Below, piece by piece: positions 2,707-24,702 of a stretch of 64,000 bases of DNA. The DNA lies in contig NW_026526025.1 of NCBI RefSeq assembly GCF_010183535.1, positions 248,001-312,000 on the forward strand, given 5' to 3'. The stretch is from Caenorhabditis remanei (Eukaryota; Nematoda; Chromadorea; Rhabditida; Rhabditidae). The translations under genes were made by a program, and so were the position numbers. How positions within the stretch are numbered: the first letter of the stretch is position 1; the number at the start of each line of letters is the position of its first letter. The notes beneath the pieces are model-generated. The model had not been told where the DNA came from, ran no database searches, and saw only the letters and a list, made by a program, of their open reading frames with translations.

Positions 2707-3620
2707 TGTTGTGGAAACTATCGTTTCCACAAGTTGAACTAGCACTCTTGATGAGAACAAAGATTATAATACACTCTGGGATAATCTAACGTGTCAAAGG
2801 ACATGTAAACTACAATGAGATGTTTATATTGTGAAGACAATCAGTCATAAGAATTTAATTCCCCCTTTCAGATTAATTCCCTTTCAGATTCACTCGTTTG
2901 GTCCTCCCTTCGCTTCGCCGTCTCATCTTGGTCTCGCTCTCCGTAAATCTACACGCTACTGCCTGCGTCTCTCCAGTGGCGGGCGGTTCTCTTCATCGGT
3001 CGCTGCGAGACCCGCTGCGTTGGCGACGAGCGAGGAGATTGCGCACTTTTGATATATTCGCTTTTTCCTATGGGTTTGATGTAATCTTCCTTGCTAAAAC
3101 TGGCTATAATTTAGTCCCCTATTAGTATAACTTATTAGAATGACCGCTTCAGCCGAATGTCATCTAAATTTCCCTTTTTACATTGTCAATCAGCGTCTTG
3201 TCACCGGCAGCGACTCGGTAACCATTTTAGGCCCCTATTATCTCTTGGTTCAGGAGTTAATCTTCTCCTGTCTCCCGTACGATAATAAAATCTTTATCGT
3301 ATAACTGTTCTTTCTTTCTCATTCAGATTCTTCTCACTACTCTTTCAGGTGCACATTCTCTCTTTATAACTTTAACAGATTATGATATGAATCTCGAGTC
3401 CTTGTCCACGATGTCCGTCTGAATCTTCGTCAATCATCTGACATTGTGTTCTCGCTCAACGGATCTGCATAAACTTCTTGTTCTCTCCTCCATCCACTCG
3501 CTAGTTCGTCGTGGATACTCTACTCAATTGTATCCACTTGCTAGTTCTGCGTGGATACTCTACTCAAATCAAGCTTATCAATCTTCTTATTTCTTGTCTT
3601 TCCCTTCGTGATTGACAAAA
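2707..3620 (+). repeat. 5' LTR of the gag-only element
   Basis: Begins TGTTGTGGAAACTATCG and contains a short hairpin at its tip (GTGGAAAC / GTTTCCAC). It carries a GC-rich block near 2970-3045, an AATAAAA at about 3284-3290 flanked by the hairpin arms TACGATAA/TTATCGTA, and ends GATTGACAAAA before the primer-binding site. Short frames inside it occur identically in the 3' copy and are not genes. Confidence 0.9.
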
Positions 3621-3637
3621 TGGTGCATCGACCAAAT
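3621..3637 (+). promoter_or_regulatory. Primer-binding site (tRNA-Gly-like)
   Basis: TGGTGCATCGACCAAAT directly follows the 5' LTR. The first 13 bases are complementary, with at most one mismatch as I recall the tRNA, to the 3' end of a tRNA-Gly(GCC) including CCA. The same 17 bases recur behind the LTR at 62659. The site lies in a small hairpin-prone context (TGGT / ACCA). Confidence 0.7.
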
Positions 3638-6101
3638 GATAATACCACTGAACCCAAAGTCGATGTTCCGGGTGACCGAGATTCAGCTGAACACTCGATC
3701 TTCACGGAGAATTATCGCGAAAAATCGATAATTCAGAAATGACCAGCAGGTCAAATAAGATTGTGAATACCAAAATGCAGTAACGAAGTGAGCTCGCTTC
3801 AATCAAAATCGAACTTGTTATAAAGAAACTAAAATCGATCAGTAGTAGCCAGGTCATAACGAGAAAAAGTATATAGTGATAAATAAGTATCGTTCGCGCA
3901 TAGACTCAAATACGCGTGTTAGAAAAGAATATCGCCAAACCTAAGAAAATCTGGTCAAAATAAATAAATAATAGACCAACAGATCGTAATAAGAGAAATT
4001 ATCTATATAGATAAACCAGGAATCGCTCGCATATACTTAAGATCAGTTCGCTATAAAAATTATATTTGAAATCGTTTTAAATAAATAATTTCAAGACTAA
4101 AAACTCTCATTTTTCAGCTCGCTTCAATGTAAACCTAACCTGTTATAAAGAAATTTTGCTTGAAATCAATTGATTAAAGACCAGCAGGTCAGATGAAAAA
4201 AAAGGTATATAGAGATAATTAATAATCGGTCTCGTAAAAGCTTGAATTCAGTTCGCTACAAAAGATTATCATTATAGTCGTTCCAAATCAATAGTTTCAA
4301 GACAAATAAACCTAACTTCATCGTAATTGTCTCATTTTAAACAAACTCAGTGTTTAAATAGTAATAACAGAAGTAATAAAACAGAATACCTCAACAAGCA
4401 CAGACTGGTACAATGGTCTACAAAATACAGAAGACGGACAGATTACAGTGACGATTCCCTGGAAAAAACTATTGAAAAATCGGAACTTATTGAGACACTT
4501 TAATCATTAAAGAGCAACAAACAGGAATCATTTAGAGAGTAGTTTTCTCGTCTACATGTCAAAATCAAAAAAATTTGTACGAAAAATCTGGTAAAAGAGC
4601 CTTGTCTGGAAAGAAATGTGCGGTATATCTGGTATACAGACACCCAGATGGATCAGTGGAATCCAATCTGATTGGAGTAAAATCAATAGTTTACCAAGCA
4701 GCCGATCGGGTTTGACAATCCCAAGACGGGAATAATCAAAAAAGGAAATGGAATCAGACACTCAGAAAGCACTGAAAATAAAAAAGCCACATCAATGACT
4801 AATCTAGCAAGGTTAGAAACCAGTGTAAATGCTGCAGTAAGTAAGTCAATGAAAGAGAAAAATCCACCAGAAAGATACAACTAATTGTTCGTACCATTCG
4901 AGTACGCTAATTCATTGTAATCATTGACAAGGATCACAAATGTAATACTGAAATTCATATGCTCAACAACAAAAACAGAGTATTAGAAAGCAGCTCACTC
5001 AAAGAATACAAAATTGCAGTAAAATTGAAAAACGTGCAGTAAATCATGGAGATAGAAACAAAGCAACGTAAACTAGCACGTCTTATGGTATTCATAGAGC
5101 ACTACAAAGAATAAGAGAGTCAAAACTGGAAAAATTCATAGCGATTATAAACTAGCAATGATGCTCATGGATGAGATCCATAAAGAATAATAAATACACC
5201 TATCCCCAAACTATTAATTAAATTGTTCACACGTAAGTGTCAATTTCTTAACACGTTGATTACATTTCTCCTCTTAGGTATCCACTTCATTCTAGAAACT
5301 CCTCTCTCTCTCTCTAGTCCTCTTAAAGGACAACCATTCTTCCTTAAATTTGTTCTTCTCTTCTTTCTTTGTTATCTCATTGTCAACTTAAGTTCGCTAC
5401 AGAAAAAGCTGTAAAGAAACAAATACAATCCACAGTTGTTGAACAATTCGTCAACGGGTCTTGAAAGCAATACAAAGAACATAAAAGAATTAAAAAAAAG
5501 ATAATCATGTAACATGAATAGAAATTATCCTTTCCAAAGTCACGGTGGAGTGATGACACGGACAGAGACCATAAAGGTTCACTGTAGAAGGAAGGAGAGT
5601 CCATTGGGGTCGACACCAATGGGATCTCTGACAAACTTCCTTACTATTAGCCTAGCGATCGATAGGGCAAACCTTTCCCGAGTCCAAACGTACTTCGCGA
5701 GTACGGTCGTAACGAAACCTGTTGGCTTATTTGTTATAGATGTGGTTAAACAAGACAATAATAAACAAGATGGTATTAAACAAGATGGTATTAAACAAGA
5801 TGGTATAAAACAAGATTGTATTAGACTAGATATGGTTATGAATTCTGCCTTCAACTCTCCTTCTTCTCATCTCTCCTCATATCTCATCCTTCCTCCTTCC
5901 TCCTTCCTCATTACACTCTTCACCGTGTATTATTCATCTCCTTTCTCTCTCTCTCTTGGTCCTTAAGACCTTCTACCCATATAATCAACTTCATTTCAGA
6001 ACTCTTTCTCTTCTTTCTCTAGTCTAGCGGTCCTTTAGACCCATCTCATATCTAATCAATTTATTTCAGATTACTCTCTTCTTAATTGGTATCGTGTGTC
6101 C
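3638..6101 (+). other. Long AT-rich leader of the gag-only element
   Basis: About 2.46 kb with no frame I would call a gene. Degenerate repeats a few hundred bases long are visible: GACCAGCAGGTCA occurs near 3740 and 4172, with a related GACCAACAGATC near 3973, each followed by TATATAG-like and TCAGTTCGCTA-like words. A 15-bp tandem repeat (AAACAAGATGGTATT, about five copies) spans about 5748-5823. Just upstream of gag are two TTTCAG sites (about 5994-5999 and 6064-6069), which look like splice acceptors and would allow gag to be made from a spliced leader RNA. That is inference; no donor was identified. Confidence 0.5.
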
Positions 6102-8156
6102 ATGGCGCCATTCCAGACGATGGCCCAACGTGTTGGGCGCTTGAAGACCCTCATTACGAATACCCTCACGTACGCCACTAACGTCGTGAACTACGTCGAA
6201 CAATGGGAGACCGATAGGGTAGCCGAGTGTCGGAAGGCTGGCGAAGAAGGTAAAACACCTGCGAATCCAAGCCTGGAGGTAACAACTGATGCTCTCAATA
6301 CTCTTATCTCTGTCGAAGTTCAATTGGATGGATTGCCTCAAGTTCTCCAATTCAGAGCAGCAAAGCTCGTTGAGGAAGCAAAGGAAGCCGAGGAAGATTG
6401 GGAAGAATTGGAGTCTCTCTGCAAAGAAGCCTTACTTGAGCGCGAACATCAACGCCAACGGCTGATAGTAGCAGTAAGTGAAAAAATTCCCATTTTTCAA
6501 GATATCCACAGGGCTAGTAAACAAACTGTCGACCCTCCACCATTGTCTCCTGAACAAGTTTTGGGCTTGGCCGAGTCATTCGAGGATCCAAATTTGGAAT
6601 CCGTGGTGGCCTCGCCAATGAAATTTCCCCTGTATAATGTACTCTTGACGGCTGATAAGGCTGAAAAGAATCTTCAGAATGGGAATTCAGGCCTCTTGGC
6701 TGAGCAATCCCACCTGCCTAATGAGACTCAACAAAATCTCGATGAGGCATTGGGAGCTCAGACTAGAGTTGTGAACACGCCTATCCTTACTGTTAATAAT
6801 CATAATAACCCCGAGCTCGGAGGTGCCCCAGCGTGGAACGTGACCAACCAGCGAGTTGAAGAGCGACAAATACGTCGACAAAACATTAACGAGATCAATA
6901 ATAACCCAGCAGCGACTGGCATCCACCGCTTAATTTTCAATAGTCCACCAGCACACAAAAGAGGAGGAAATCAACTTCTAAGAGAATACAGTAGAAGAAA
7001 CAACTCGACAGAGAGATTTAATCCAAGAAACACTGCCGGATATACAAATTTCGGTTACAATGAAGAGAATCATGAGAGACAGTACCATGAAAGAAACTTC
7101 AATGGAAATGCGTACTCAGAATACTATCAGCAACAACAAAGATATAATAGAATGAGATACTCAGAATATCCGGACCACCAGAACACTTGGTTACAGTACC
7201 AAAACCAACCAAATCAAACTCATCAATCGCAAGGAAACTGGTATAATCAACAGATACCATATAAAAGATGCGAAGTGTGCAACGGAGATCATGAAATCAC
7301 CTTTTGTAACCAAAACGATGAAGTGGTCGCTAGAGTATGCATAAAAATTGGAATTTGTCCGAAATGCAGAGCAGGTGGTCATCAGGTTAGTGGTTGCCCA
7401 TTACTGTACCTGGAAAAGGAGCAGGCAAGAATGAATAGAGAAAAGAATCATGAAGAATCGAGAAATCGAAACCACTTCAATGACCAAGAATCGAATCGTG
7501 ATAATCGAAATTTCGTTCACCAGCAAAGAGTTAATAATCAGCCAAGATACGCAGAACAAAAGAACGAGATCTCAGAGAAAAACTTGGCAAGACATGTAGC
7601 TAACATCAAACCCTTCACCGGAATCATCTCAGAATACGCATCATTCCGTAATATCATGGCTGAATACCTGGAATCAGAGACAGTTTCTCTAGTAGTCAGA
7701 AGAGATACTTTGATGCAGAAAATCAGCGGAGAAGCCGCAGTACAGAAGTCTATTCTGGACGATCCAGGAAAAGCAATCGACATTACAATGAAAAATTTAG
7801 ACAGAACATATAAGAGAAAAGGATCAACTACAATCAGAAACCAATTCGAGAAAGTAATTGTAACAGATGAGAATATTGATGCGTTCATCAAGTCATTAGC
7901 CTTATCTAAAAGTCTACATGACAAGATCCTGGAAGAGGAGCCACACTGTTTTGGACATCACTCAATAAAAGCTCTACTGGGCAGAATGCCAGACGCAGTT
8001 CGCAGAATGTGCAACAGAATGTTGAGAGACGAAACATTATCCACGGAAAAGATCTATGAGAAAGCAGAAGAACATCTTGATAATCAAATCGAAGATGCAG
8101 AAATCACGGGAAAATCCACAAACCAGACACGAGTTTCTCGTGACCAACAACACTAA
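6102..8156 (+). CDS. Gag-like protein, zinc knuckles before a DUF1759-like part
   Basis: One intact frame of 684 codons from the ATG in CCATGG. The N-terminal about 140 residues are helical and acidic (gag-like). A long Asn/Gln/Arg/Tyr-rich middle follows. Then comes a cysteine/histidine region with two knuckle-like units (CEVCNGDHEITFC and CPKCRAGGHQVSGC). The C-terminal third (from about IKPFTGIISEYASFRNIM) resembles the DUF1759-type capsid segment of BEL/Pao gags. In ordinary BEL gags that part precedes the knuckles, as in the second element of this window, so the order here is inverted. No protease motif follows; the frame ends at TAA. Role: presumably RNA binding and particle assembly. 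Family call is likely, detailed domain calls are by eye. Confidence 0.75.
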   Translation: MAPFQTMAQRVGRLKTLITNTLTYATNVVNYVEQWETDRVAECRKAGEEGKTPANPSLEVTTDALNTLISVEVQLDGLPQVLQFRAAKLVEEAKEAEEDWEELESLCKEALLEREHQRQRLIVAVSEKIPIFQDIHRASKQTVDPPPLSPEQVLGLAESFEDPNLESVVASPMKFPLYNVLLTADKAEKNLQNGNSGLLAEQSHLPNETQQNLDEALGAQTRVVNTPILTVNNHNNPELGGAPAWNVTNQRVEERQIRRQNINEINNNPAATGIHRLIFNSPPAHKRGGNQLLREYSRRNNSTERFNPRNTAGYTNFGYNEENHERQYHERNFNGNAYSEYYQQQQRYNRMRYSEYPDHQNTWLQYQNQPNQTHQSQGNWYNQQIPYKRCEVCNGDHEITFCNQNDEVVARVCIKIGICPKCRAGGHQVSGCPLLYLEKEQARMNREKNHEESRNRNHFNDQESNRDNRNFVHQQRVNNQPRYAEQKNEISEKNLARHVANIKPFTGIISEYASFRNIMAEYLESETVSLVVRRDTLMQKISGEAAVQKSILDDPGKAIDITMKNLDRTYKRKGSTTIRNQFEKVIVTDENIDAFIKSLALSKSLHDKILEEEPHCFGHHSIKALLGRMPDAVRRMCNRMLRDETLSTEKIYEKAEEHLDNQIEDAEITGKSTNQTRVSRDQQH

Positions 8157-8766
8157 AACCAAATCAGGTACAATTATTATAAACTCAGTAAAAATAAATT
8201 AAATACAGTTATAATCAAACAATATTCAAACGAGACAAAAAAGAATCATTCCTAATAACAAACGAAACACCAAAAAAGGTGGATCAGTCATCAGATATTC
8301 TCCTTGCCAGCTCTTCGGAGATTACCTCCGGGAAAAATCTATCAACAGAAAATCAAGAAAATAAAAGGACGAACGCGTCAGAAAACCAATAACCAGTTAT
8401 TCTCCTTGTTAGTCCTTCGGAGAATATAACTTAATATAAACTCTCAGCAGAGAGACAAGAAAGTCCGTATAAAACTACTCCAGAAAATCAAGATCATGAA
8501 ATATTTGATACGATCCCTCTATACGCTGATACTTCGTTGGGAGATAAAAACGTGAGAATTAACCAGATCACCCACACGAAGCTATTGCACTAGGTAGAAC
8601 ACCAAATACAGAAGACCAGAATTCTCGTCTAGAAAAATCAGAACCTAAATTAATCCTACAAGAGTCATGCCACAAAGAAGAGCCAAAGAAGAAATAACTT
8701 ACTCTACTCCGGACTCCGACTCGGAATAACTCGATTATTCCGTCGTCGAAGCCCTCCGGGGGGGAG
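8157..8766 (+). other. 3' tail and polypurine tract of the gag-only element
   Basis: Noncoding. Two related hairpin words, TCTCCTTGCCAGCTCTTCGG near 8299 and a similar one near 8399, can pair with nearby GGAGA. The tail ends in CCTCCGGGGGGGAG (8753-8766) directly before the LTR, which fits a plus-strand primer tract. Confidence 0.65.
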
Positions 8767-9680
8767 TGTTGTGGAAACTATCGTTTCCACAAGTTGAACT
8801 AGCACTCTTGATGAGAACAAAGATTATAATACACTCTGGGATAATCTAACGTGTCAAAGGACATGTAAACTACAATGAGATGTTTATATTGTGAAGACAA
8901 TCAGTCATAAGAATTTAATTCCCCCTTTCAGATTAATTCCCTTTCAGATTCACTCGTTTGGTCCTCCCTTCGCTTCGCCGTCTCATCTTGGTCTCGCTCT
9001 CCGTAAATCTACACGCTACTGCCTGCGTCTCTCCAGTGGCGGGCGGTTCTCTTCATCGGTCGCTGCGAGACCCGCTGCGTTGGCGACGAGCGAGGAGATT
9101 GCGCACTTTTGATATATTCGCTTTTTCCTATGGGTTTGATGTAATCTTCCTTGCTAAAACTGGCTATAATTTAGTCCCCTATTAGTATAACTTATTAGAA
9201 TGACCGCTTCAGCCGAATGTCATCTAAATTTCCCTTTTTACATTGTCAATCAGCGTCTTGTCACCGGCAGCGACTCGGTAACCATTTTAGGCCCCTATTA
9301 TCTCTTGGTTCAGGAGTTAATCTTCTCCTGTCTCCCGTACGATAATAAAATCTTTATCGTATAACTGTTCTTTCTTTCTCATTCAGATTCTTCTCACTAC
9401 TCTTTCAGGTGCACATTCTCTCTTTATAACTTTAACAGATTATGATATGAATCTCGAGTCCTTGTCCACGATGTCCGTCTGAATCTTCGTCAATCATCTG
9501 ACATTGTGTTCTCGCTCAACGGATCTGCATAAACTTCTTGTTCTCTCCTCCATCCACTCGCTAGTTCGTCGTGGATACTCTACTCAATTGTATCCACTTG
9601 CTAGTTCTGCGTGGATACTCTACTCAAATCAAGCTTATCAATCTTCTTATTTCTTGTCTTTCCCTTCGTGATTGACAAAA
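8767..9680 (+). repeat. 3' LTR of the gag-only element
   Basis: Matches 2707-3620 line by line at a constant offset of 6,060 bp with no difference seen. It is followed by the duplicated target CTTGC. Confidence 0.9.
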
Positions 9681-14739: not shown

Positions 14740-16043
14740 CAGGGTGCGGCAGAATTACCCGCACAAGCTATAAGTGCTATATCTAAAAAAGTAAAAGTCA
14801 GAAAACCATGGGAATCAACAAAAAGTTTATTCATGACCATATCAACAATTATCAGCTAATCTTGTTCCATCCGACCTCCTCTCTTTTCGATGACAGCACG
14901 AAGACGTCTAGGGTAGGCATCGATGGTTGCACGCAGGTACTCCGGAGACAAAGCGTCTCATTCCTTGACCAGGGTCTTCTTCAGCGCCTCGATACTTGAG
15001 TGGGGTTTAGCGTTGACCTTGTTTTGTAAAACCCCCCAGATGGAGTAGTCCAAAGGATTGAGGTCTGGCGAGGACGGTGGCCATTCGTCCTTCGGGATGA
15101 ACGCAGGCAAATGGGTTTCGCACCACTGTTGCGACAACTTGGCAGTGTGTGCTGGTGCGCCGTCTTGTTGGAACACCCAGCGACGTCCATTGAAGTGCTT
15201 CTGGGCCCAGGGAAGAAGTGTCTTTTCCAAAATCTGCGAAATGTAGACTTCTTTATTGATTTTGACTCCCTGATCGACAAAAAGCAATGGTGACTTGCCA
15301 TCAGCACACACTGCTCCAAAAACCATCACACTAGCGGGATGAGAAGCTTGATGAATGGTCCTTCCGTTTGCAAAAGCTTCCTCAGATGTCTCAGCTAGTA
15401 CTCGATGATTTTGAGGATTTAATTCGGCCTGTACCGTAAACAGCTTCTCGTCGGAGAACACTGTCACCAAGTGTTCACCATTGCGCGTGCGCTGAAGGAG
15501 CTTTTTTGACCTTTCGAGCCGTTTCTTCGTTGTAGCTTCCGAGAGAATGGCTGCTTTTCTTACACGGTAGCAGGTAAGTTTCAGCTTGTCTTTGACAATC
15601 CTTCCCATCGAACGTGAACTAATTTTCATACCTTTCGCCATTTTTCTGATGCTCCGATGTGGATTTCTTCTGATTCTCTCTTTCACAGCTTTAATCCGAT
15701 CTGGAGTCACGACTGTTGGTTTTCTGCCTCTCCCACATCTATCCAAAAACGTGCCAAGCTTTTTGAAACGAGAAATCGAATCATAGACGGTTCTACTTGG
15801 GACTCCGAGCCGTTTAATGATGTCAACCGGAGGGACTCCTGCTTTGAAAAGGTTCAAAATAGAAGAGCGATGTGGACTCGGCGGTGCCATTTACCTAAAA
15901 CAAAACCGATCAATCTGAAATTTGGCACAATGATAAAAAATGAAATAATTAACAAAAATTTAAATAATACGCGCGCCAGAATTGCGTCAATCGCCTTGCT
16001 TTATGGCGCCAAACTTTTGTGCGGGTAATTCTGCCGCACCCTG
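14740..16043 (-). mobile_element. maT-type (Tc1/mariner, DD37D) DNA transposon
   Basis: A 1,304-bp element bounded by perfect 27-bp inverted repeats beginning CAGGGTGCGGCAGAATTACC (14740-14766 and 16017-16043) and by TA duplications (14738-14739, 16044-16045). It contains one transposase frame on the minus strand. Size, repeats and the catalytic spacing fit the maT group known from insects and Caenorhabditis. Confidence 0.93.
14856..15890 (-). pseudogene. maT transposase with one premature TGA
   Basis: The frame opens at the ATG at 15890 and is uninterrupted to a TGA at 14958-14960, giving 310 residues. An N-terminal helix-turn-helix pair (residues about 1-115, including IIKRLGVPSRTVYDSI) would bind the terminal repeats. 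The DDE/D core follows: first Asp in VFSDEKLF, second in QQDGAPAH, third in PDLNPLDYSIW. There are 37 residues between the second and third, the DD37D spacing. After the TGA the same frame stays open for 33 more codons to TAG at 14856 and still reads like a transposase C-terminus. The simplest view is a full-length gene disabled by one nonsense change, probably from a Trp codon. All catalytic residues are present, so decay is recent. Confidence 0.88.
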
Positions 16044-16544: not shown

Positions 16545-17660
16545 GTATTCACTTTTAAAATAACCGGTGAAGGTGGTACACCCATACCATCAACTGACAC
16601 AAAATTGTATGCACCCATCAACAATATAGCTCACTCGATCGTCAAGAATTTCACAGTACACATCAATTCTCAGTTGGTCTATCACAACTCTATGAATTAT
16701 GCATACAAGAGTTATTTTGAAAACTTGTTAATGTACAGTAAAGAGCAGAAAAATTCAACACTGAGTGTTTCTGGGTATACACACGAAGATACCATCGATC
16801 ATAAGGAAAGCCATGGCTTTCTTACCCGATGTAGATGGGTCAAAGACGGTAAATCTATGCAAGTTGCCGCAAACATTTCGATTGATTTGACCAACCAACC
16901 CCGTGTATTGTTAAACAATTGCAATATGAAATTAACAGCGTACCCAAATTCTGACTCTTTTCTAATTGATAACTATGAAAACTCTGGTGTTAAATATGAA
17001 TTACACATTGAAGATGTTCACTGTCGTGTAAACGAGTTGGAACTCGCAGATGGACTTGCCAATGAAATTGAAGCTGCTTTGATTGAACACAAATTATTCC
17101 AATACCCCCTTATTAGTTCGCAAGTTCGATCGTTTTACATTAGTGAAGGTCGTAACGATGCTCCGGCAAACACCTTATTCACTAGTAAAATGCCTCGTCG
17201 TATATTCATGGGACTCGTGAGTGCGGCAGCTATTAGCGGAGACTATAACTTATCACCCTTCAACTTCAAACCGTTTGGAATTCGAGATGTTCACATAGAT
17301 TTTTGTGGTGTCACACTGCCTGGAAGACCAATGAATTTGGACTTTAGCATGGGAAAATGTGTAGAACCCTACCTTATGCTACAAGAAGCATTAGGTCACA
17401 ATCGCAATAACACTACTTGTAACTCTATAAGTTTTGACCAATTCAAAGGGAAGGGGTTCACCATTTTTGGGTTTGAATTGAGCCCCGTTGCTAAAGATAC
17501 ATCGCTTTTCGAGCTTGTAAGACCTACAAATGTGTCTATTCGTTTGAATTTTAACGAACTTACACCTACCGGAGGTCTTTATTGTATTGTATATGCAGAA
17601 TTTGATCAACTTGTAGGTGTTGATTACCAGCGAAATCCGGTTATTGATACAACTGTATAA
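16545..17660 (+). CDS. Maverick/Polinton-type major capsid protein, 5' truncated
   Basis: The readable part is about 370 residues and closely follows the double jelly-roll major capsid protein of Maverick/Polinton elements. Landmarks: the FKITG...G start segment, YAPINNIAHSIVKNFTVHIN, NYAYKSYFENLL followed by YSKEQKN, and a C-terminal half with FGIRDVHIDFCG and FNELTPTGGLYCIVYAEFDQL. The frame is open further upstream to a GTG near 16479, but that part (GC-rich) does not look like capsid, and no ATG precedes the conserved region. The first Met is deep inside it (NSMNY). So the N-terminus is missing or lies in an unseen exon; CACAG at about 16541-16545 could be an acceptor. It ends TAA at 17660 with AATAAA soon after. 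It would form the virion shell. Confidence 0.8.
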   Translation, partial: VFTFKITGEGGTPIPSTDTKLYAPINNIAHSIVKNFTVHINSQLVYHNSMNYAYKSYFENLLMYSKEQKNSTLSVSGYTHEDTIDHKESHGFLTRCRWVKDGKSMQVAANISIDLTNQPRVLLNNCNMKLTAYPNSDSFLIDNYENSGVKYELHIEDVHCRVNELELADGLANEIEAALIEHKLFQYPLISSQVRSFYISEGRNDAPANTLFTSKMPRRIFMGLVSAAAISGDYNLSPFNFKPFGIRDVHIDFCGVTLPGRPMNLDFSMGKCVEPYLMLQEALGHNRNNTTCNSISFDQFKGKGFTIFGFELSPVAKDTSLFELVRPTNVSIRLNFNELTPTGGLYCIVYAEFDQLVGVDYQRNPVIDTTV

Positions 17661-17719
17661 TTTTTTTTTAAATAAATAATTTTTTCAAAAAAACATTTTT
17701 TTACACACAACTTATGAAT

Positions 17720-18277
17720 TTAGTACAATTTGAATAAAACGACGTGCCAATGTTTCGACTTTTCCGTCGTATCCGGTCTATATCCAACAGTTTGACCAAC
17801 TCTTGTTATTCGATTTGCGATAAAAAGTAGAGCGTGCATTCTTTCGGCCCTTTCGATTCTCAAACGTTCCCGTGTTTCTTCTTCTGTTTCTTCTTCTATA
17901 TTATGGGCCAAATCAATTGGATACAAACTCCCTGGTTTATTTTTAATGTACACATATGGTCCATTTGGGTTTTTCACATGTATAGCCCACTCACGATGTA
18001 GGTATTCTGGAATATTTTGCCAAAGCCCATCTTGCAACCAATGTTCGTCACGTGGTCTAAAAGATACACAACTTTAAGAAATGAATATACCCGGGATTTA
18101 AAAAAAATTTACTTACTCTAAAACAATTTGCGGGACACCATACACTGTGCAGCGTCGATGACGTAAACGTAAATTCATAGGTCCGATTGCTTCTAGTTGT
18201 GCATTTAACACACGTGAAGAAAGTTGACGCCAGTTTGGGAAAGCAATATCTAAAAACTGGTCAAAAGAAGACAACAT
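17720..18277 (-). CDS. Unknown two-exon gene in the capsid block (165 aa)
   Basis: Exon 1 is 18277-18117 and exon 2 is 18056-17720, joined in phase over a 60-bp intron (GTAAGT to TTTTAG). The predicted protein is soluble, with an aromatic segment (EHWLQDGLWQNIPEYLHREW) and a charged helix (EEETEEETRERLRIERAERM) in the middle. No signal peptide or membrane segment is seen, and I recognise no family. It lies tail to tail with the capsid gene (59 bp between stops) and its start is 68 bp from the stop of the next gene. That packing suggests it belongs to the Maverick-type element, perhaps a structural or accessory protein, but this is context only. Confidence 0.65.
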
Positions 18278-18345
18278 TTTGCACAAGTTTTGAAATTTCG
18301 ACTCTTTATATACAAGTCAAAGGACCGCCCACTATATTAAATATT

Positions 18346-18834
18346 CTATACACAAGAAGTAATTCGGACGGCACAAACTTCAATGGGGTGGTACCGTCCT
18401 AAAACATCAAAAATTATAGGAGAATAAGGGTAATTTATAGTGTATGCATAATCTTCCTTGTATATTTCTTCGACTGTTTTTGTAGTTGTAGGCATTCTCG
18501 TTGAAGTTGTATGGTATTCTCTGTAAGTGGATTTTTCTTTTGTTGGTTAAATAAGAATGAAACTCACGGTACGATAATAGGCAAAGGTATTGTTGTGTAA
18601 GTAATGGTGTTCCATATATGTAATACTTGAGGTTGATTTAAAAATTTTGTATATTTTTCAGTGACGTGTGGTGATAAATTTTCAACAAAATCTCCTCTAT
18701 ATCGCATGTAGTCTTTAAGATAAAAGTCCATTTCCTGAAATTTTAAATTGTTTGTAATTTTGGTACAAAAAGCTTACTGGTCTGCAGGGAGGTGTTAGCC
18801 AATACGGTGGACGAGGTGTACGAAAACGGGTCAT
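18346..18834 (-). CDS. Unknown three-exon gene in the capsid block (132 aa)
   Basis: Exons 18834-18778, 18734-18568 and 18520-18346 join in phase. Introns are 43 and 47 bp, with donors GTAAGC and GTGAGT and acceptors TTTCAG and TTACAG. It starts MTRFRTPRPPYWLTPPCRP, then has a Tyr-rich helical part (FYLKDYMRYRGDF) and a Thr-rich stretch before the tail YPYSPIIFDVLGRYHP. No recognisable domain, signal or membrane segment. The three consistent junctions make it a real gene model rather than chance. Its start codon is 27 bp from the stop of the innexin-like gene. Confidence 0.6.
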
Positions 18835-18861
18835 AATGACGGATAGAGTAGTGCTTCCGAT

Positions 18862-20119
18862 TTATATATCATAGACAGCTGGCCGGGCACAGTTTGCAAC
18901 CAAGTGTGTTGAAATATTGGTTTCACTATCTTTGTCAAAATCTCGTTTATACATTACATCTTTCATCCAATTTTGATAAAGAAATGTAGCGACTTTTATG
19001 GTGGTTTTTCCATATGGTCCTTTCATAAATTTGAAAACTAGAACCAAGTCTTGTGAAACTCTAGTTTTCACAAATTTGTCTACAAGTCGTATTGTTTCTA
19101 AATTTTTTAAATCCATGTTTTCATCCAAAAAAAATGAGCTCGCTGACAACTTGTTTACGACGTATTGTAGCAATGTTGATACCAAAGTCCGCAATTGTAA
19201 TCATACCAAGGATGCACGTCCAAAACCAATGAAAGACGAAAACGGCTTGAATGGTTTTGTTGTTTGGTAGAACACATTGAATTAATTCTTCATGCATGTT
19301 ACCTCCTGGAGTAGACATATAATTATGTATGCAGTATGCAATTGTAGGAAAAGGCTCGTTCAACAATTTGATCTCGAGTAAATAATTGTACAATATTTTG
19401 AACCCCCATACTGGTCCAAGTCCGTGATCGAAAATAATGTGCGACATTTGAAATTGTAATATAATGTTGACCACGTAGAGCAATTTTGTAGTTGTGTGCA
19501 AATGATGAAATCTTGGCTGTGGAAATACTCGAAACCATTTGAAACCACTGCTGGATGTCTGGGTCGTCAACATTTCGCACAGTTCAGCACATATGTTTTC
19601 TTTTTCTCGGTTTGAAGCCTTGTCCATTCGTTTAGTCTTTTCCATAATATCATCAATTTTTACTTCTGTATACACAGTTGTAGTTTTCCAGAATATTCGA
19701 GGTAATAAATAGCCAAACGCAGCAATCAAACAAATGTATATACAGTTTGGGTAGTAGGCAATCTTTTTGAATTGATCGTATTGCATTTTGTCTAACGGTT
19801 TGATTTTTTTCTCATAGTCCGGTAAAAACAGTAGTTCAGTTCGGTATCATTTGGTACTCGTTGTTGTACCCCACTGTGGTGAATAATGTTGTGGTGGAAA
19901 ACAGTCAAAGTTATTTCCATAGTTTCTGAAAATTTACATGAGATTGAAGTACGTATTACGTAAGACTTACACTCCTTTAGCTACCAAAAAGGCTGCTAAT
20001 ATTAAAAGCACGGTTGAAACTTTGGAAGAGATTACAGCTATAAAATCTTCCTTAATCGATAAACCTTGATTCAGATTAGAAATTGTAGAATACCAAGGCG
20101 CTGGAACTTCGGTAGACAT
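18862..20119 (-). pseudogene. Innexin-family gene with frame disruptions
   Basis: Exon 1 (20119-19971) encodes a start like MSTEVPAPWYSTISNLNQG and the first membrane segment (VSTVLLILAAFLVAK); exon 2 begins at 19925 after a 45-bp intron. Innexin landmarks follow in order: a CFPPQ start of the first loop, the YYPNC equivalent of the YYQW signature with a second hydrophobic segment, a third at LLYVVNIILQFQ, FPTIAYC and IQCVLPNN in the second loop, then VFVFHWFWTCILGMITI as the fourth, and a cytoplasmic tail (ENMDLKNLETIRLVDKFVK). All four loop cysteines can be found. The frame breaks in the first loop (a TGA near 19846 between two compensating one-base shifts) and again at a T8 run near 19127-19134. 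Innexins form gap junctions and membrane channels. This is decay or consensus error. Confidence 0.8.
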
Positions 20120-20127
20120 GTGTCAGG

Positions 20128-20819
20128 ATGTTTCCTTTTTCAAACTTATATACATTCTTTTGTTCTACAAACAAAGGTTGTCTTAGCTTCTGTGAATATT
20201 TAAAAAAGTATAAGAAGAAGAGGGTCTTTCACTGGATCCCGTCTCCACCACTTCGTATCGGAGAGAAAGACGAATTTGTAAGTTTTTTATACATCTTCTT
20301 CATTAAAAATTGTATTTTTTAGGAAATAGACCGACCGTTGAAAATTTGGATTGCTAACAAACAGTGGAATATCGACAACTTGACTAACTATCAAATAAAT
20401 GAGATTAATCTCATGTTCAATAATGCCATCGTTTGGAATTCTCTGACAAACGTTCTACTTGACACACCGGTGGTTACAAAGTAAGTTTAAAAGTTTTATT
20501 TGAGACATTACTTTGAGTTTTCAGATATCGTACTGTCGCGACGGCAAATTTACCCTTCGGAGGTAAACGCCTGAGGGAATACTATTCAACAAACTTTGGA
20601 GTGACCATTGAACACCCCTCATCTCCAATCGTTATGGACAAACTGGTACCGCATGCAATCGAATATCTTTGGATTCGAACATCTGTTAATGAAGAAGAAA
20701 ACGAAGACGAAGAAGAGGAAGAAACGGAAGATTTTGACATAGAAGACGAGGAGGAGGAAGATTTTGAATTCGAAGAAGAATTCCATTTTGAGGATGAGGA
20801 ATATGAATTTCGTAAATAA
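20128..20819 (+). CDS. Unknown three-exon gene with acidic tail (200 aa)
   Basis: Exons 20128-20277, 20323-20480 and 20525-20819 join in phase; introns are 45 and 44 bp with GTAAGT donors and TTTTTTAG/TTTTCAG acceptors. The N-terminal part has a basic cluster (KKYKKKRVFHWIP), the centre has WIANKQWNIDNLTNYQINEI, and the last about 55 residues are almost all Glu, Asp and Phe. No family recognised. Its ATG is only 8 bp from the divergent innexin-like ATG, so the 5' ends must share or overlap control sequence; alternatively the true start differs. Packing places it in the capsid-gene block. An acidic tail could bind basic proteins, but function is unknown. Confidence 0.6.
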
Positions 20820-21452
20820 GTTTTTTGTGTCAGAACCCCGATATCCTCTTTTTCTTTTACACTTTTTTTGTGTATCTTGTACACTTTTTTTTGTGGAGTT
20901 TTTTAAAATACTTTATTCATAAAAACTTTAAAATAAATTATTTGTAATTTAGGAAGTAAAAGTTCTGAAAAATTCAAAATTCAAAGAAAATTAAAATTGT
21001 ATAGAGACTCACGAAACTTGTTATTAGTATATATTTGAGACAGTTTTTACAAATTTTTGTTATATACCAAAATTTAGATTAATTAATTCCATTTTATTGC
21101 GTGTCCAGTGAATAATATAGGTTTTCATCAGTTTTGGTTAGTACGTTCGTTTTTAATTTTTTCCTGTGTGAAAATGTGATTTTTCAAAAATTGAATTAGT
21201 CGTCCTAAAATTACTATAACTCTCTGTCCGTCCAAAAAAGGGAGGGTCCGTTCAAAAAAGTTGTCAACTACAAAAATGAAGCTACACTTTTGTTTTGTAT
21301 AATTTATTAAAAATATGCTTGATGGGGCAATTACCTTTCTTGACTTGTTGTAAGTGAAGTTACTATATAATTATTGTGCTCTATTGTATTTTTCTCAGAA
21401 TTGTGTAGGTGTTTATGCATGACTGACCGTGTTATCTATTGTTGCCTTCAAT
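20820..21452. other. Intergenic DNA right of the capsid block
   Basis: AT-rich with T runs and AATAAA-like words close behind the preceding gene (near 20930). No gene, no recognisable terminal repeat of a Maverick element. The element's right edge could lie here, but I cannot place it. Confidence 0.4.
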
Positions 21453-21652
21453 AGCAGTATGTATGTGTGAAAAAAAAGGTCGAGAAAGCATAATTACCTT
21501 TGTTTGTAATTACACATTAGGGAGGGGAGGGGTAGCACACCATATGGTAGGTAGCAGTATGTGTGTGTAAAAAAAGGAACGAGGAAGCATAATTACCTTT
21601 ATTTGTAATCACACATTAGGGAGGGGAGGACCTAGCACACCATATGGTAGGT
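21453..21652 (+). repeat. Two tandem 100-bp units upstream of a small gene
   Basis: Units 21453-21552 and 21553-21652 both begin AGCAGTATGT and end CACCATATGGTAGGT. They share CATAATTACCTTT and ACATTAGGGAGGGGAGG. They differ by roughly a dozen bases. CCATATGG is a perfect palindrome in each. They end about 110 bp before the next start codon and may carry promoter sites; inference. Confidence 0.8.
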
Positions 21653-21764
21653 ATGACATTGTGGAAAGAGGCGTGGCTAACTCCACAAGAACCACCGAAA
21701 AAATTTTCGACCATTCACACACCAATCTTTACCGAATAGAGTCGTCTGTATATTTTTTCTTCAA

Positions 21765-22302
21765 ATGGAAGACGACGACGATGCCAATATTTTCAATTTT
21801 TGGATCACACATCGCCGACGGGTGGAGGAACAGGAACGAGAAAGGCGTGAAGATGAGTATGAGGATAGACGTGAGTTTTTATTTAATCATTTCTATATCT
21901 TTGTATTTTCTCCTTTTAGCTCAAGTGCAGCTGAGCGACATTGTCGACATGACGAGAGGGCGGTTGAGGAGACAACTTTCTGCCCTAGGGTCGGTGAGAG
22001 TGGAGTTTCTCCACATGCTCCATCTCCCGGCCCTGTGGACACGCATAATTCCAGACCATGAGCAAAACACGTAAGTGAACACTCTGAAAATTTCTAATCA
22101 TAACATCCTTATAATCTGTTACAGGGCACGTAGCAAAATGGTCCGAGTATGGCGCAATGATGAATACGTAACAGTCTCATTAATGAATCACTACGAGTAT
22201 TATTATGAGTTCACACTCCAATATCCAGACCTCCCGCTGGTCCGACTCGAAAGTTTCCGGCCCACGGAGGCTTTCCCAATGGAAATGATATTACTTGTTT
22301 GA
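21765..22302 (+). CDS. Unknown three-exon gene (144 aa)
   Basis: Exons 21765-21870, 21920-22070 and 22125-22302 join in phase; introns are 49 and 54 bp with GTGAGT/GTAAGT donors and TTTTAG/TTACAG acceptors. The protein starts with an acidic run (MEDDDDAN) and a highly charged helix (RRRVEEQERERREDEYEDR), then a Leu/Arg-rich part (TRGRLRRQLSALG), and a C-terminal part with YEYYYEFTLQYPDLPL. No domain recognised, no signal peptide. The ATG lies behind CTTCAA with a TATATTTTTT upstream. The stop codon lies inside a 20-bp stem-loop. It could be a lineage-specific host gene or the last gene of the neighbouring block. Confidence 0.6.
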
Positions 22303-22334
22303 TTCATAATTGATTCAAACAAGTAATATCATTT
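22283..22334. terminator. Perfect 20-bp stem-loop over the stop codon
   Basis: AAATGATATTACTTGTTTGA at 22283-22302 is exactly reverse-complemented at 22315-22334, leaving a 12-nt loop. The stop codon is the end of the left arm. In an animal mRNA this would be a 3'-UTR hairpin rather than a bacterial-type terminator; it may also be a small inverted-repeat insertion that supplied the stop. Confidence 0.7.
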
Positions 22335-22345
22335 TAATTGGGACT

Positions 22346-22456
22346 ATTGTCAAAATAAAAAAGTGATACCCCGATGTTTTGCGGACTTAGTGCTAATTTT
22401 AATAATTTTGCACTACGTCCGCAAACACCGGGTATCACTTTTTTTATTTCGACAAT
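22346..22456. mobile_element. 111-bp foldback MITE-like repeat
   Basis: Arms of about 45 bp pair with few mismatches. The left arm starts ATTGTCAAAATAAAAAAGTG, and the right arm ends TATTTCGACAAT. A possible 3-bp direct repeat ACT flanks it. No coding capacity. Confidence 0.65.
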
Positions 22457-22565
22457 ACTTATATTTATTTAATCTGTATTTATTTAACTCCTTAATTTAT
22501 TTAATCTGTGTCATCATTTTATTTAATCTGTGTCATCGTTTCATTTCATCTGTGTCATCATTTAT
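22457..22565. repeat. Short repeats of a TTTAATCTGTGTCATC word
   Basis: TTATTTAATCTGTGTCATC-like words occur about four times here and once more near 22760-22785. Spacing is about 20-25 bp with variation. Confidence 0.5.
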
Positions 22566-22676
22566 TTAAAAGAGTCCTAACTGCTTCATCACAGTGTTTT
22601 TTTGAGCTTTGTTTTCCTCCTCGACTTCTTGACGATGTTCGGACGGAACCAGTTCCAGTCCATCTGATATATCCAT
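22566..22676 (-). CDS. Possible small ORF (36 aa), minus strand
   Basis: A frame of 36 codons from ATG at 22676 to TAA at 22566. The product is charged and helical: MDISDGLELVPSEHRQEVEE then a Lys/Gln-rich end. GATGATTCAG just before the ATG looks like a splice acceptor, so it could be a last exon. The composition looks more coding than the flanks, but there is no homology support and no upstream exon found. Confidence 0.25.
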   Translation of the reverse strand: MDISDGLELVPSEHRQEVEEENKAQKNTVMKQLGLF

Positions 22677-22877
22677 TCTGAATCATCACTTAGGTATACC
22701 TATGAAATGAATGCTCTCAACAGTAAATAAGAAAAATGACAACTCTCTCACATATACGTATATTTATTTAATCTGTGTCATCCTATTATTTATTTAAAAA
22801 AATAAAGACAAACAATATTCCATTTTTTCATTATTTTAATCTTTTTAATATTTTCATATAGGAGTCAAATTTTTATA

Positions 22878-24435
22878 CAGTGTCCGACAAAACCATAGGT
22901 TCACTTTTCCAGTTGAGATTTCTGGCGATTTGAGAAGTTGCAAGAAAATTGTCCATGGACAAAAAAGACCCCTTAAATACTCTAAAACGTAAACAAGATT
23001 ACATTTGAATACCTATCATCCTACTCAAAATATGATTAAAAATGTTGAAAATGGCCACTTGCAAACGCGACAAAACTATAGGTTCACCCCAAAAAATCAA
23101 AAATTGAAAAAATAATTTTTTCCAATGAGTGAAGGAAAATGTGCTTTTATCAAATGCGGAATCTTCGTCGAAAATTAAGCTCGTTAAATACATTTCTAAA
23201 GCATTTTCAGTTAAAAAATTTTGAGAAAAATGAGAATTTCTGGAAATTCTCAAACCTCTTCGTTTTTCATTTGTCTCGTCCATATAAGTTTTATCTAGCA
23301 TCTCATTTTTGTTCTTACAAATTGTGATATCTATGCGGTAGAGTTTAGTATAGCTTTTTTAAGTATTTGACACTTTTTGAACAACTTTGGTTCAGAAGAG
23401 TCGAAAATTTTTTGAAATTGGGCACGCACTTACTCGGAAATTTCTTGATATTTTTCATTTTATCTAGTTTTTTTCTGCTTGTATACACAGAATTGGTCTT
23501 ATTGTTCACTTTTTTAACATTTTTCCTAGAGTAGCTTTACTTTAAATTAATAAAATACAGGCAACATGAATTTTCAACTGTATCGTATGGAGGAAAATTT
23601 ATAGCACTTTTGAAAATTGTCGCGGCGGTAATCTAATTCTAAAAACCTAACGAACCCATAATGATTAATATTTTGTATCCTGGAATATTACCATCATTGC
23701 TCATTGAACACATTTTGAATGAGCTGGTGATTTTGCGTCTACTTTTCTGATCTCAAAACTATTTTTGCTACTTTTTTGCTAATTTAAAGTAAAGCTACTC
23801 TAGGAAAAATGTTAAAAAAGTGAACAATAAGACCAATTCTGTGTATACAAGCAGAAAAAATTAGATAAAATGAAAAATATCAAGAAATTTCCGAGTAAGT
23901 GCGTGCCCAATTTCAAAAAATTTTCGACTCTTCTGAACCAAAGTTGTTCAAAAAGTGTCAAATACTTAAAAAAGCTATACTAAACTCTACCGCATAGATA
24001 TCACAATTTGTAAGAACAAAAATGAGATGCTAGATAAAACTTATATGGACGAGACAAATGGAAAACGAAGAGGTTTGAGAATTTCCAGAAATTCTCGTTT
24101 TTCTCAAAAATTTTCTACTGAAAATGTTTTAGAAATATATTTGACTTGCTCAATTTTTGTCGAAGATTCTAAATTTGATAAAACAACACTTTGATTCACT
24201 CACTGGGAAAAATTATTTTTTGGGGTGAACCTATAGTTTTGTCGCGTTTGCAAGTGGCCATCTTCAACATTTTTAATCATATTTTGAGTAGGATGATAGG
24301 TATTCGAATGTAATCTTGTTTACGTTTTAGAGTATTTGAGGGGTCTTTTTTTGTCCATGGACAATTTTCTTGCAACTTCTCAAATCGCTAGAAAACTCAA
24401 CTGGAAAAGTGAACCTATGGTTTTGTCGGACACTG
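22878..24435. mobile_element. 1,558-bp foldback element with ~660-bp arms
   Basis: It starts CAGTGTCCGACAAAACCATA and ends with the reverse complement. Arms run about 22878-23550 and 23780-24435 around a spacer of about 220 bp. TA lies on both sides (22876-22877, 24436-24437). Arms differ at scattered positions. There is no transposase; short frames within one arm are mirrored in the other. Tips and target site fit a nonautonomous Tc1/mariner derivative. Confidence 0.85.
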
Positions 24436-24437
24436 TA

Positions 24438-24702
24438 TAGGATGTGGGAAGAGGGTGTTCCGAGGAGTGAAATAAAAGGGGTCTAAAAAGCAAATTATGA
24501 ATAGAAACAGTGGGAAAGATTACCATTCAACGGAACGGTATATAAATGCGATCAGTTTCCAATTTCCATCATTTTAATTTTTTTGGTTAGAGGTAGGTGA
24601 CAAATATTAATAGTAAAATTGAAATAACAAAAATTAATAATATAGAAACATTTTCGATTTAGAATTTTCCAAAATCAATACATGACGTGATAGTTTGATC
24701 GC
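24438..24702. other. Unique flank left of the satellite
   Basis: No gene. GGTATATAAATGCGATCAG at about 24538-24556 is a good TATA-like sequence about 165 bp left of the array, followed by a T-rich tract and TTTTGGTTAG. Whether it drives transcription toward the array is unknown. Confidence 0.4.

Follow-up and report, generated by a model that had tools for sequence, protein, structure and literature searches.

A divergent innexin gene in a Maverick-type element fragment of Caenorhabditis remanei and its probable capture from a nematode genome

Gene content of the locus

The window analyzed here is a 64,000-bp stretch of the C. remanei assembly GCF_010183535.1 (contig NW_026526025.1, positions 248,001 to 312,000). 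It contains a tightly packed block composed of a capsid gene on the plus strand, genes A and B and an innexin gene on the minus strand, and gene C on the plus strand. C1 to C6 denote C. remanei chromosomes I, II, III, IV, V, and X, respectively, and C148 is the unplaced scaffold (337 kb) to which the window belongs. The features are as follows:

16545..17660, plus: capsid gene, assigned to the Maverick family; 89 genome matches, with 79% identity to the C3 and C4 elements
17720..18277, minus: gene A, two exons; position and strand conserved in the X copy and three sister elements
18346..18834, minus: gene B, spliced; position and strand conserved in the X copy and three sister elements
18862..20119, minus: innexin, whole gene; ATG at 20119, stop codon at 18862-18864
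18862..19140, minus: cytoplasmic tail part of the innexin, in a frame different from that of the middle part (translation; 97% match to the X copy)
19121..19846, minus: middle part of the innexin, membrane segments 2-4 and loop 2 (Pfam Innexin, E 7.9e-28)
19847..19849, minus: in-frame stop codon within the innexin (translation)
19850..19925, minus: start of innexin exon 2, with the first cysteine of loop 1 (translation, alignment)
19926..19970, minus: phase 2 intron at the host innexin intron place (compared with six host innexin loci)
19971..20119, minus: exon 1 of the innexin, encoding the N-terminus and membrane segment 1 (translation, hydropathy)
20128..20820, plus: gene C, three exons, acidic C-terminus; begins 8 bp from the innexin
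20146..20152, minus: TATATAA box of the innexin, inside gene C, 33 bp before the innexin ATG

The N-terminus of the capsid gene is about 60 residues short compared with a relative. At the amino acid level, gene A is 93-100% identical to the X copy and 47-60% identical to the three sister elements. The corresponding values for gene B are 96-98% and 63-64%, and this gene has one further weak match (C6:1254889) with no capsid match nearby. Gene C likely belongs to the element; its exon 2 has four other partial relatives genome-wide, of which three contain a stop and none is near a capsid match. To the right, the block ends somewhere from about 20830 to 21150, because the region 21150-22860 corresponds to other repeats present on C3 and C4. 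For the same reason, 21765-22300 was rejected as a further block gene. The fragment in the window has no terminal inverted repeats and no adenovirus-type protease.

Identity and state of the innexin gene

Innexins are the gap-junction proteins of the host, and the gene at 18862-20119 is a divergent member of this family. Its middle part matches the Pfam Innexin family (PF00876) with 98 bits, compared with a curated cut-off of 25, and the PDB chain Innexin-6 (E 1.5e-9). Membrane segments 1, 2, and 4 pass the hydropathy cut-off, whereas segment 3 falls below it, although it is aligned to the profile. Host innexins align with it at the first loop 1 cysteine, at both loop 2 cysteines, and across the junction between loop 2 and segment 4. 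Loop 1 is degraded, and its second cysteine, which is expected in innexins, is absent from the main frame of this broken copy.

The reading frame is broken twice, by the stop codon at 19847-19849 and by a frame change near 19130, so the gene as assembled cannot encode a single whole protein. This copy is now a fossil. The initial annotation had placed the gene correctly at 18862-20119 and had also given the right distances to its neighbors, namely 27 bp to gene B (starting at 18834) and 8 bp to gene C (starting at 20128). Its description of innexin landmarks from the first membrane segment to the cytoplasmic tail agrees with the Pfam, PDB, and alignment results, but the two frame breaks had been overlooked.

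Probable Maverick identity of the element family

Maverick (Polinton) elements are characterized by a double jelly-roll capsid, an Adenain/Ulp1-type protease, terminal inverted repeats, a protein-primed DNA polymerase B, a retrovirus-type integrase, a packaging ATPase, and target-site duplications. The capsid gene of the window, which we take to be a Maverick capsid, in agreement with the initial annotation, from its size, conservation, and neighbors, was searched against the whole genome (130.5 Mb) to obtain the 89 matches listed above. The capsid profile had no match in PDB, and a single-sequence structure model was useless (pLDDT 31). Three sister elements on C3, C4, and C1 have capsids that are 79-80% identical to that of the window (the C1 capsid is shortened), and the capsid-A-B order is common to all three. 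The sequence common to these elements ends at one shared terminus, next to which lie three different flanks. This 24-base terminus occurs in inverted pairs around the sister capsids, with spans of 10.6 kb (C3), 11.1 kb (C4), and 13.6 kb (C1). Allowing up to 3 mismatches, it is found at 26 places in the genome, compared with none for a reversed-pattern control. Beyond gene B, all three sisters have about 1 kb or more with tandem repeats, followed by the terminus.

Four copies were scanned for the adenovirus-type protease domain Peptidase_C5 (Pfam), which scored above the cut-off in L019 and below it in L022, and had no match in L024 or in L016, the one sister element scanned. L019 is a more distant copy (64% capsid relative) with the protease near its capsid. 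When compared with PDB, this protease matched S273R (E 5.8e-5), which we take to be the African swine fever virus enzyme, and weakly matched adenain (E 0.062). A Pfam scan of ten other open reading frames near capsids identified a PIF1-type helicase in L036 and an F-box-associated domain in L035, with no polymerase and no integrase among the ten. The initial annotation had described the block as Maverick-type, and this assignment is supported at the sequence level by the repeated capsid, the inverted termini of the sister elements, and the protease of the distant copy. No relative was found among viral contigs when these were scanned with the innexin, with the capsid, and with an alignment of 10 capsid rows (10 of the 89 matches).

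Four further pairs of the terminus lack a match to this capsid (C2:17948105-17957521, C3:2066683-2075448, C4:8109733-8119134, and C5:10839340-10849249). These pairs are inverted, have 1-2 mismatches, and are 8.8-9.9 kb apart; they are perhaps capsid-less derivatives or elements with another capsid type. In addition, broken capsid-like matches, some in each orientation, are clustered on the X chromosome (C6:3693470-3708176).

Linkage of the innexin to the element

A second copy of the block is located on the X chromosome. It aligns with positions 16911-19312 of the window at 98.75% identity over 2403 columns (about 2.4 kb), plus 96 bp in inverted orientation, and contains the capsid, genes A and B, and the end of the innexin with the capsid-A-B-innexin order kept. 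Comparison of window positions 1-24500 with a 9.9 kb stretch of the X chromosome found nothing else shared, and the flanks are unrelated. To the left of the X copy is another element gene, which has 21 other matches that all start within 7 kb of a capsid (22 of the 89 capsid places were compared), and to the right is a retroelement frame with integrase domains. Because the X copy repeats the block amid unrelated flanks and next to another element gene, the innexin travels with the element. The X innexin remains open through the second break place and ends at its own stop a few codons further, so the window and X innexins are broken differently; the first break place (19847-19849) lies outside the coverage of the X copy.

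Two more innexin relics were found. The one at C1:12.394 Mb is 86% identical over 185 bp; a capsid fragment of 43 residues lies 4.2 kb from it, and the two are ordered and oriented relative to each other as in the window. The other, at C2:15.761 Mb, contains stops and is 80-85% identical over 320-410 bp; the 9.9 kb examined there contain no match to the capsid. A 63-bp match at C1:13.209 Mb was left out of this count. The innexin is broken or partial at all four places (window, X, C1, and C2), and exon 1 was found in the window only. None of the 73 matches of a whole-genome innexin scan is located in the three sister elements. In the window, the innexin occupies the end region beyond gene B, where the sisters carry no innexin and have only the repeats and the terminus. 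The initial annotation had regarded the lack of an intact Maverick with an innexin as evidence against capture. No such intact element was found in this one genome. The X chromosome provides a second linked copy. The association of the innexin with a viral-type genome is therefore seen at two sites, in fragments only.

The sequences upstream of the genes have a bearing on this association. TATATAA precedes the ATGs of gene A, gene B, and the innexin by 35, 34, and 33 bp, respectively, and these are the only 3 of the 763 ATGs in window positions 1-24500 (both strands) that have this motif starting at -36 to -33. For gene A, the motif is present at -34 in all three sister elements, while their gene B has no TATATAA in the stretch examined. 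The final bases of the gene B box are also part of the innexin stop codon, and such interlocking of boxes with neighboring genes suggests that the innexin was an established part of the element. At gene starts in other copies, TATATAA is absent between -45 and -25 (capsid, 0/12; pX-like, 0/8; protease, 0/4), and TATAAA or TATATA occurs within 80 bp (7/12, 7/8, and 4/4, respectively). One host innexin (L005) has TATATAA 37 bp before its ATG, such that the box need not be element-derived. The TATA argument for element membership is thus weaker than it looks.

One alternative is that a Maverick landed by chance beside a host innexin and that a segmental duplication subsequently placed a copy of both together on the X chromosome. 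The full linkage is seen at two places only, both of which are rearranged, as such an origin might leave it. We nevertheless consider this scenario very improbable, given that the genome contains no close host innexin (the best host match is 34% identical over a short stretch, or 28% over 198 residues) and that two additional innexin relics exist on C1 and C2. Moreover, an element gene that is missing in the window is present in the X copy, which thus was not derived from the remnant in the window. The overlap of the gene B promoter box with the innexin stop is also difficult to reconcile with a chance neighborhood.

Probable host origin of the innexin

The window innexin has its intron in phase 2, and the eighth residue downstream of the split codon is the first loop 1 cysteine. 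An intron of the same place and phase is present in four (L001, L002, L005, and L006) of the six host innexin loci that were compared; of these, L005 and L006 are nearly duplicates of each other, with 90% identity, and L001 was seen at the acceptor side only. The other two loci (L003 and L004) have no intron at that place. Because the intron matches host innexins in place and phase, the sequence argues for an innexin that was taken as genomic DNA from a nematode innexin.

Compared with ten rows taken from this genome, one of which (contig C53) may be a contaminant, the window innexin is 16-24% identical. The ten rows are 19-50% identical among themselves, except for one pair at 90%. In a tree built from the window innexin and nine rows of the host genome (the partial row H_C1_10.3297 was left out), the window branch is very long (2.34 substitutions per site) and is grouped with the X:4.42 / IV:14.71 pair and C53 (support 87; the pair and C53 are joined with a support of 58). 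This grouping is likely due to long-branch attraction, and no donor is claimed. Among 11 host-locus frames, the number of residues between the loop 2 cysteines is 17 in the same pair and C53 and 16 in the rest, compared with 18 in the window. Overall, the window innexin resembles Caenorhabditis host innexins in its segment order, loop 2 cysteines, and first intron place and phase, and differs from them in its low identity, long branch, and broken frame. Contig C53 was also considered as a second site with an element-borne innexin and was rejected, since it has no capsid match. The divergent innexin on this contig (L046; C53:16000-25900) is accompanied by long serine and proline-lysine repeats and may come from another animal as a contaminant.

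The capture by a Maverick-type element that had been suggested initially is supported by the X copy, the repeated capsid, the termini of the sister elements, the distant protease, and the host-type intron. We therefore favor, with a probability of roughly 0.87, the interpretation that a Caenorhabditis Maverick captured a nematode innexin and kept it as a cargo gene. The lineage would have acquired the gene as genomic DNA, intron included, and would have retained it beyond gene B with a short TATA-type promoter arrangement like those of genes A and B.

Selection on the innexin

Comparison of the window innexin with the C1 relic covered 66 codons, with 17 synonymous and 18 non-synonymous differences (dN 0.12, dS 0.69, dN/dS 0.18; Fisher p 1e-5). 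This one stretch of the innexin evolved under constraint, as measured against a single relic that is tied to the element by the 43-residue capsid fragment. For the capsid, comparison between the window and C3 gave a dN of 0.14 with saturated synonymous sites. Between the window and the X copy, changes are too few to be informative, with 2 synonymous and 5 non-synonymous changes in 249 codons of the capsid, and 0 and 1, respectively, in 88 codons of the innexin tail.

These patterns are relevant to the hypothesis that the innexin was a passenger of no benefit to the element, which was kept briefly and is now decaying. That every copy in this genome is broken or partial, and that three sister elements manage without an innexin, would both be expected of a passenger. 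However, given the dN/dS of 0.18 at a dS of 0.69 and the protein-level similarity that the C2 relic has retained despite its stops, the constraint appears to have outlasted the capture considerably, and we regard a mere passenger as improbable.

Comparison with known viral innexins and Maverick cargo

Nematode Mavericks are described as carriers of cargo genes that encode wosp proteases and krma kinases, and as vehicles that move genes between nematode species (Widen and colleagues, as presented in a meeting report, PMC10680173). The captured innexin resembles the wosp and krma cargo in being a nematode gene family taken up by a Caenorhabditis Maverick, and differs in that it encodes a membrane channel.

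For viruses, the initial annotation had noted that innexins are established in polydnaviruses. This is correct, although they are known more widely, as endogenous nimaviruses (majaniviruses) also have innexins, such as Nimav-1_LVa g155 (PMC7016691, PMC10871703). In both this case and ours, an animal DNA virus in a host genome has a spliced, host-derived innexin. Nevertheless, the nimavirus is an unrelated 280 kb shrimp virus with an innexin of four exons, whereas the elements here are nematode elements of the 10-14 kb class with one intron in the innexin. Ichnovirus innexins lack introns and are thought to have originated from reverse-transcribed insect genes (PMC4553618). In comparison, the window innexin keeps a host intron and has a predicted role, while the function of ichnovirus vinnexins has been tested.

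Viral innexins and Maverick cargo genes are both known. No report that joins an innexin with a Maverick or Polinton was found in a search of the open literature, where PMC4553618 names Mavericks and innexins without connecting them; an earlier report is possible. A captured innexin would represent a Maverick cargo with an obvious route to affect the host, namely cell coupling, and Mavericks would be a third virus group with an innexin, beside ichnoviruses and nimaviruses. Repeated independent capture of innexins would suggest that gap junctions are a general viral target, and the placement in a model genus allows this to be tested.

Possible role of the innexin

While the elements were active, the innexin may have been made in infected or element-bearing cells, and the protein would have entered the membrane to form channels alone or with host innexins. 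Such channels could have shifted gap-junction coupling or hemichannel opening, for example between the somatic gonad and germ cells, and the altered coupling may have favored the spread of the element or blunted the host response. Ichnovirus vinnexins are reported to depolarize hemocytes, disturb encapsulation and moulting, and slow development (PMC8402728). By analogy with these effects, a role in disturbing multicellular responses would be the most plausible model.

It is also conceivable that the innexin was an unpaired, viroporin-like membrane pore, or an entry or assembly factor, rather than a gap-junctional protein. The loop 2 cysteines have 18 residues between them, whereas 11 host-locus frames have 16 or 17, and loop 1 is degraded; both features are compatible with this possibility. 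However, the membrane segments and the loop 2 cysteines are retained, and we consider such a function unlikely. Regarding the gap-junctional role, that the innexin changed coupling or hemichannel opening for the benefit of the element is a serious possibility, albeit one to which we assign a little less than an even chance. More tentatively, a nematode Maverick lineage may have turned a captured host innexin into its own gap-junction protein and reshaped coupling, possibly between soma and germline, to help it pass from cell to cell or reach the germ line.

Other repeats in the window

Several other mobile or repetitive sequences surround the element fragment. Directly to its left is an open transposase frame with a DDE_3 domain (14958-15890), presumably of the mariner/Tc1 type. 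Further to the left is an LTR-retrotransposon-like insertion (2707-9680), which has two 914-bp ends that are 100% identical and a long open reading frame (6039-8156) with no Pfam match. This insertion apparently splits a gene, the right part of which has weak p300-type similarity that is below the domain cut-offs. To the right of the fragment, an inverted repeat (22874-24439) with arms of about 680 bp at 93% identity and the ends TACAGTGTCCGACAAAACC is a probable transposon. Finally, a satellite array with an 88-bp unit extends over about 37.8 kb (24703-62461).
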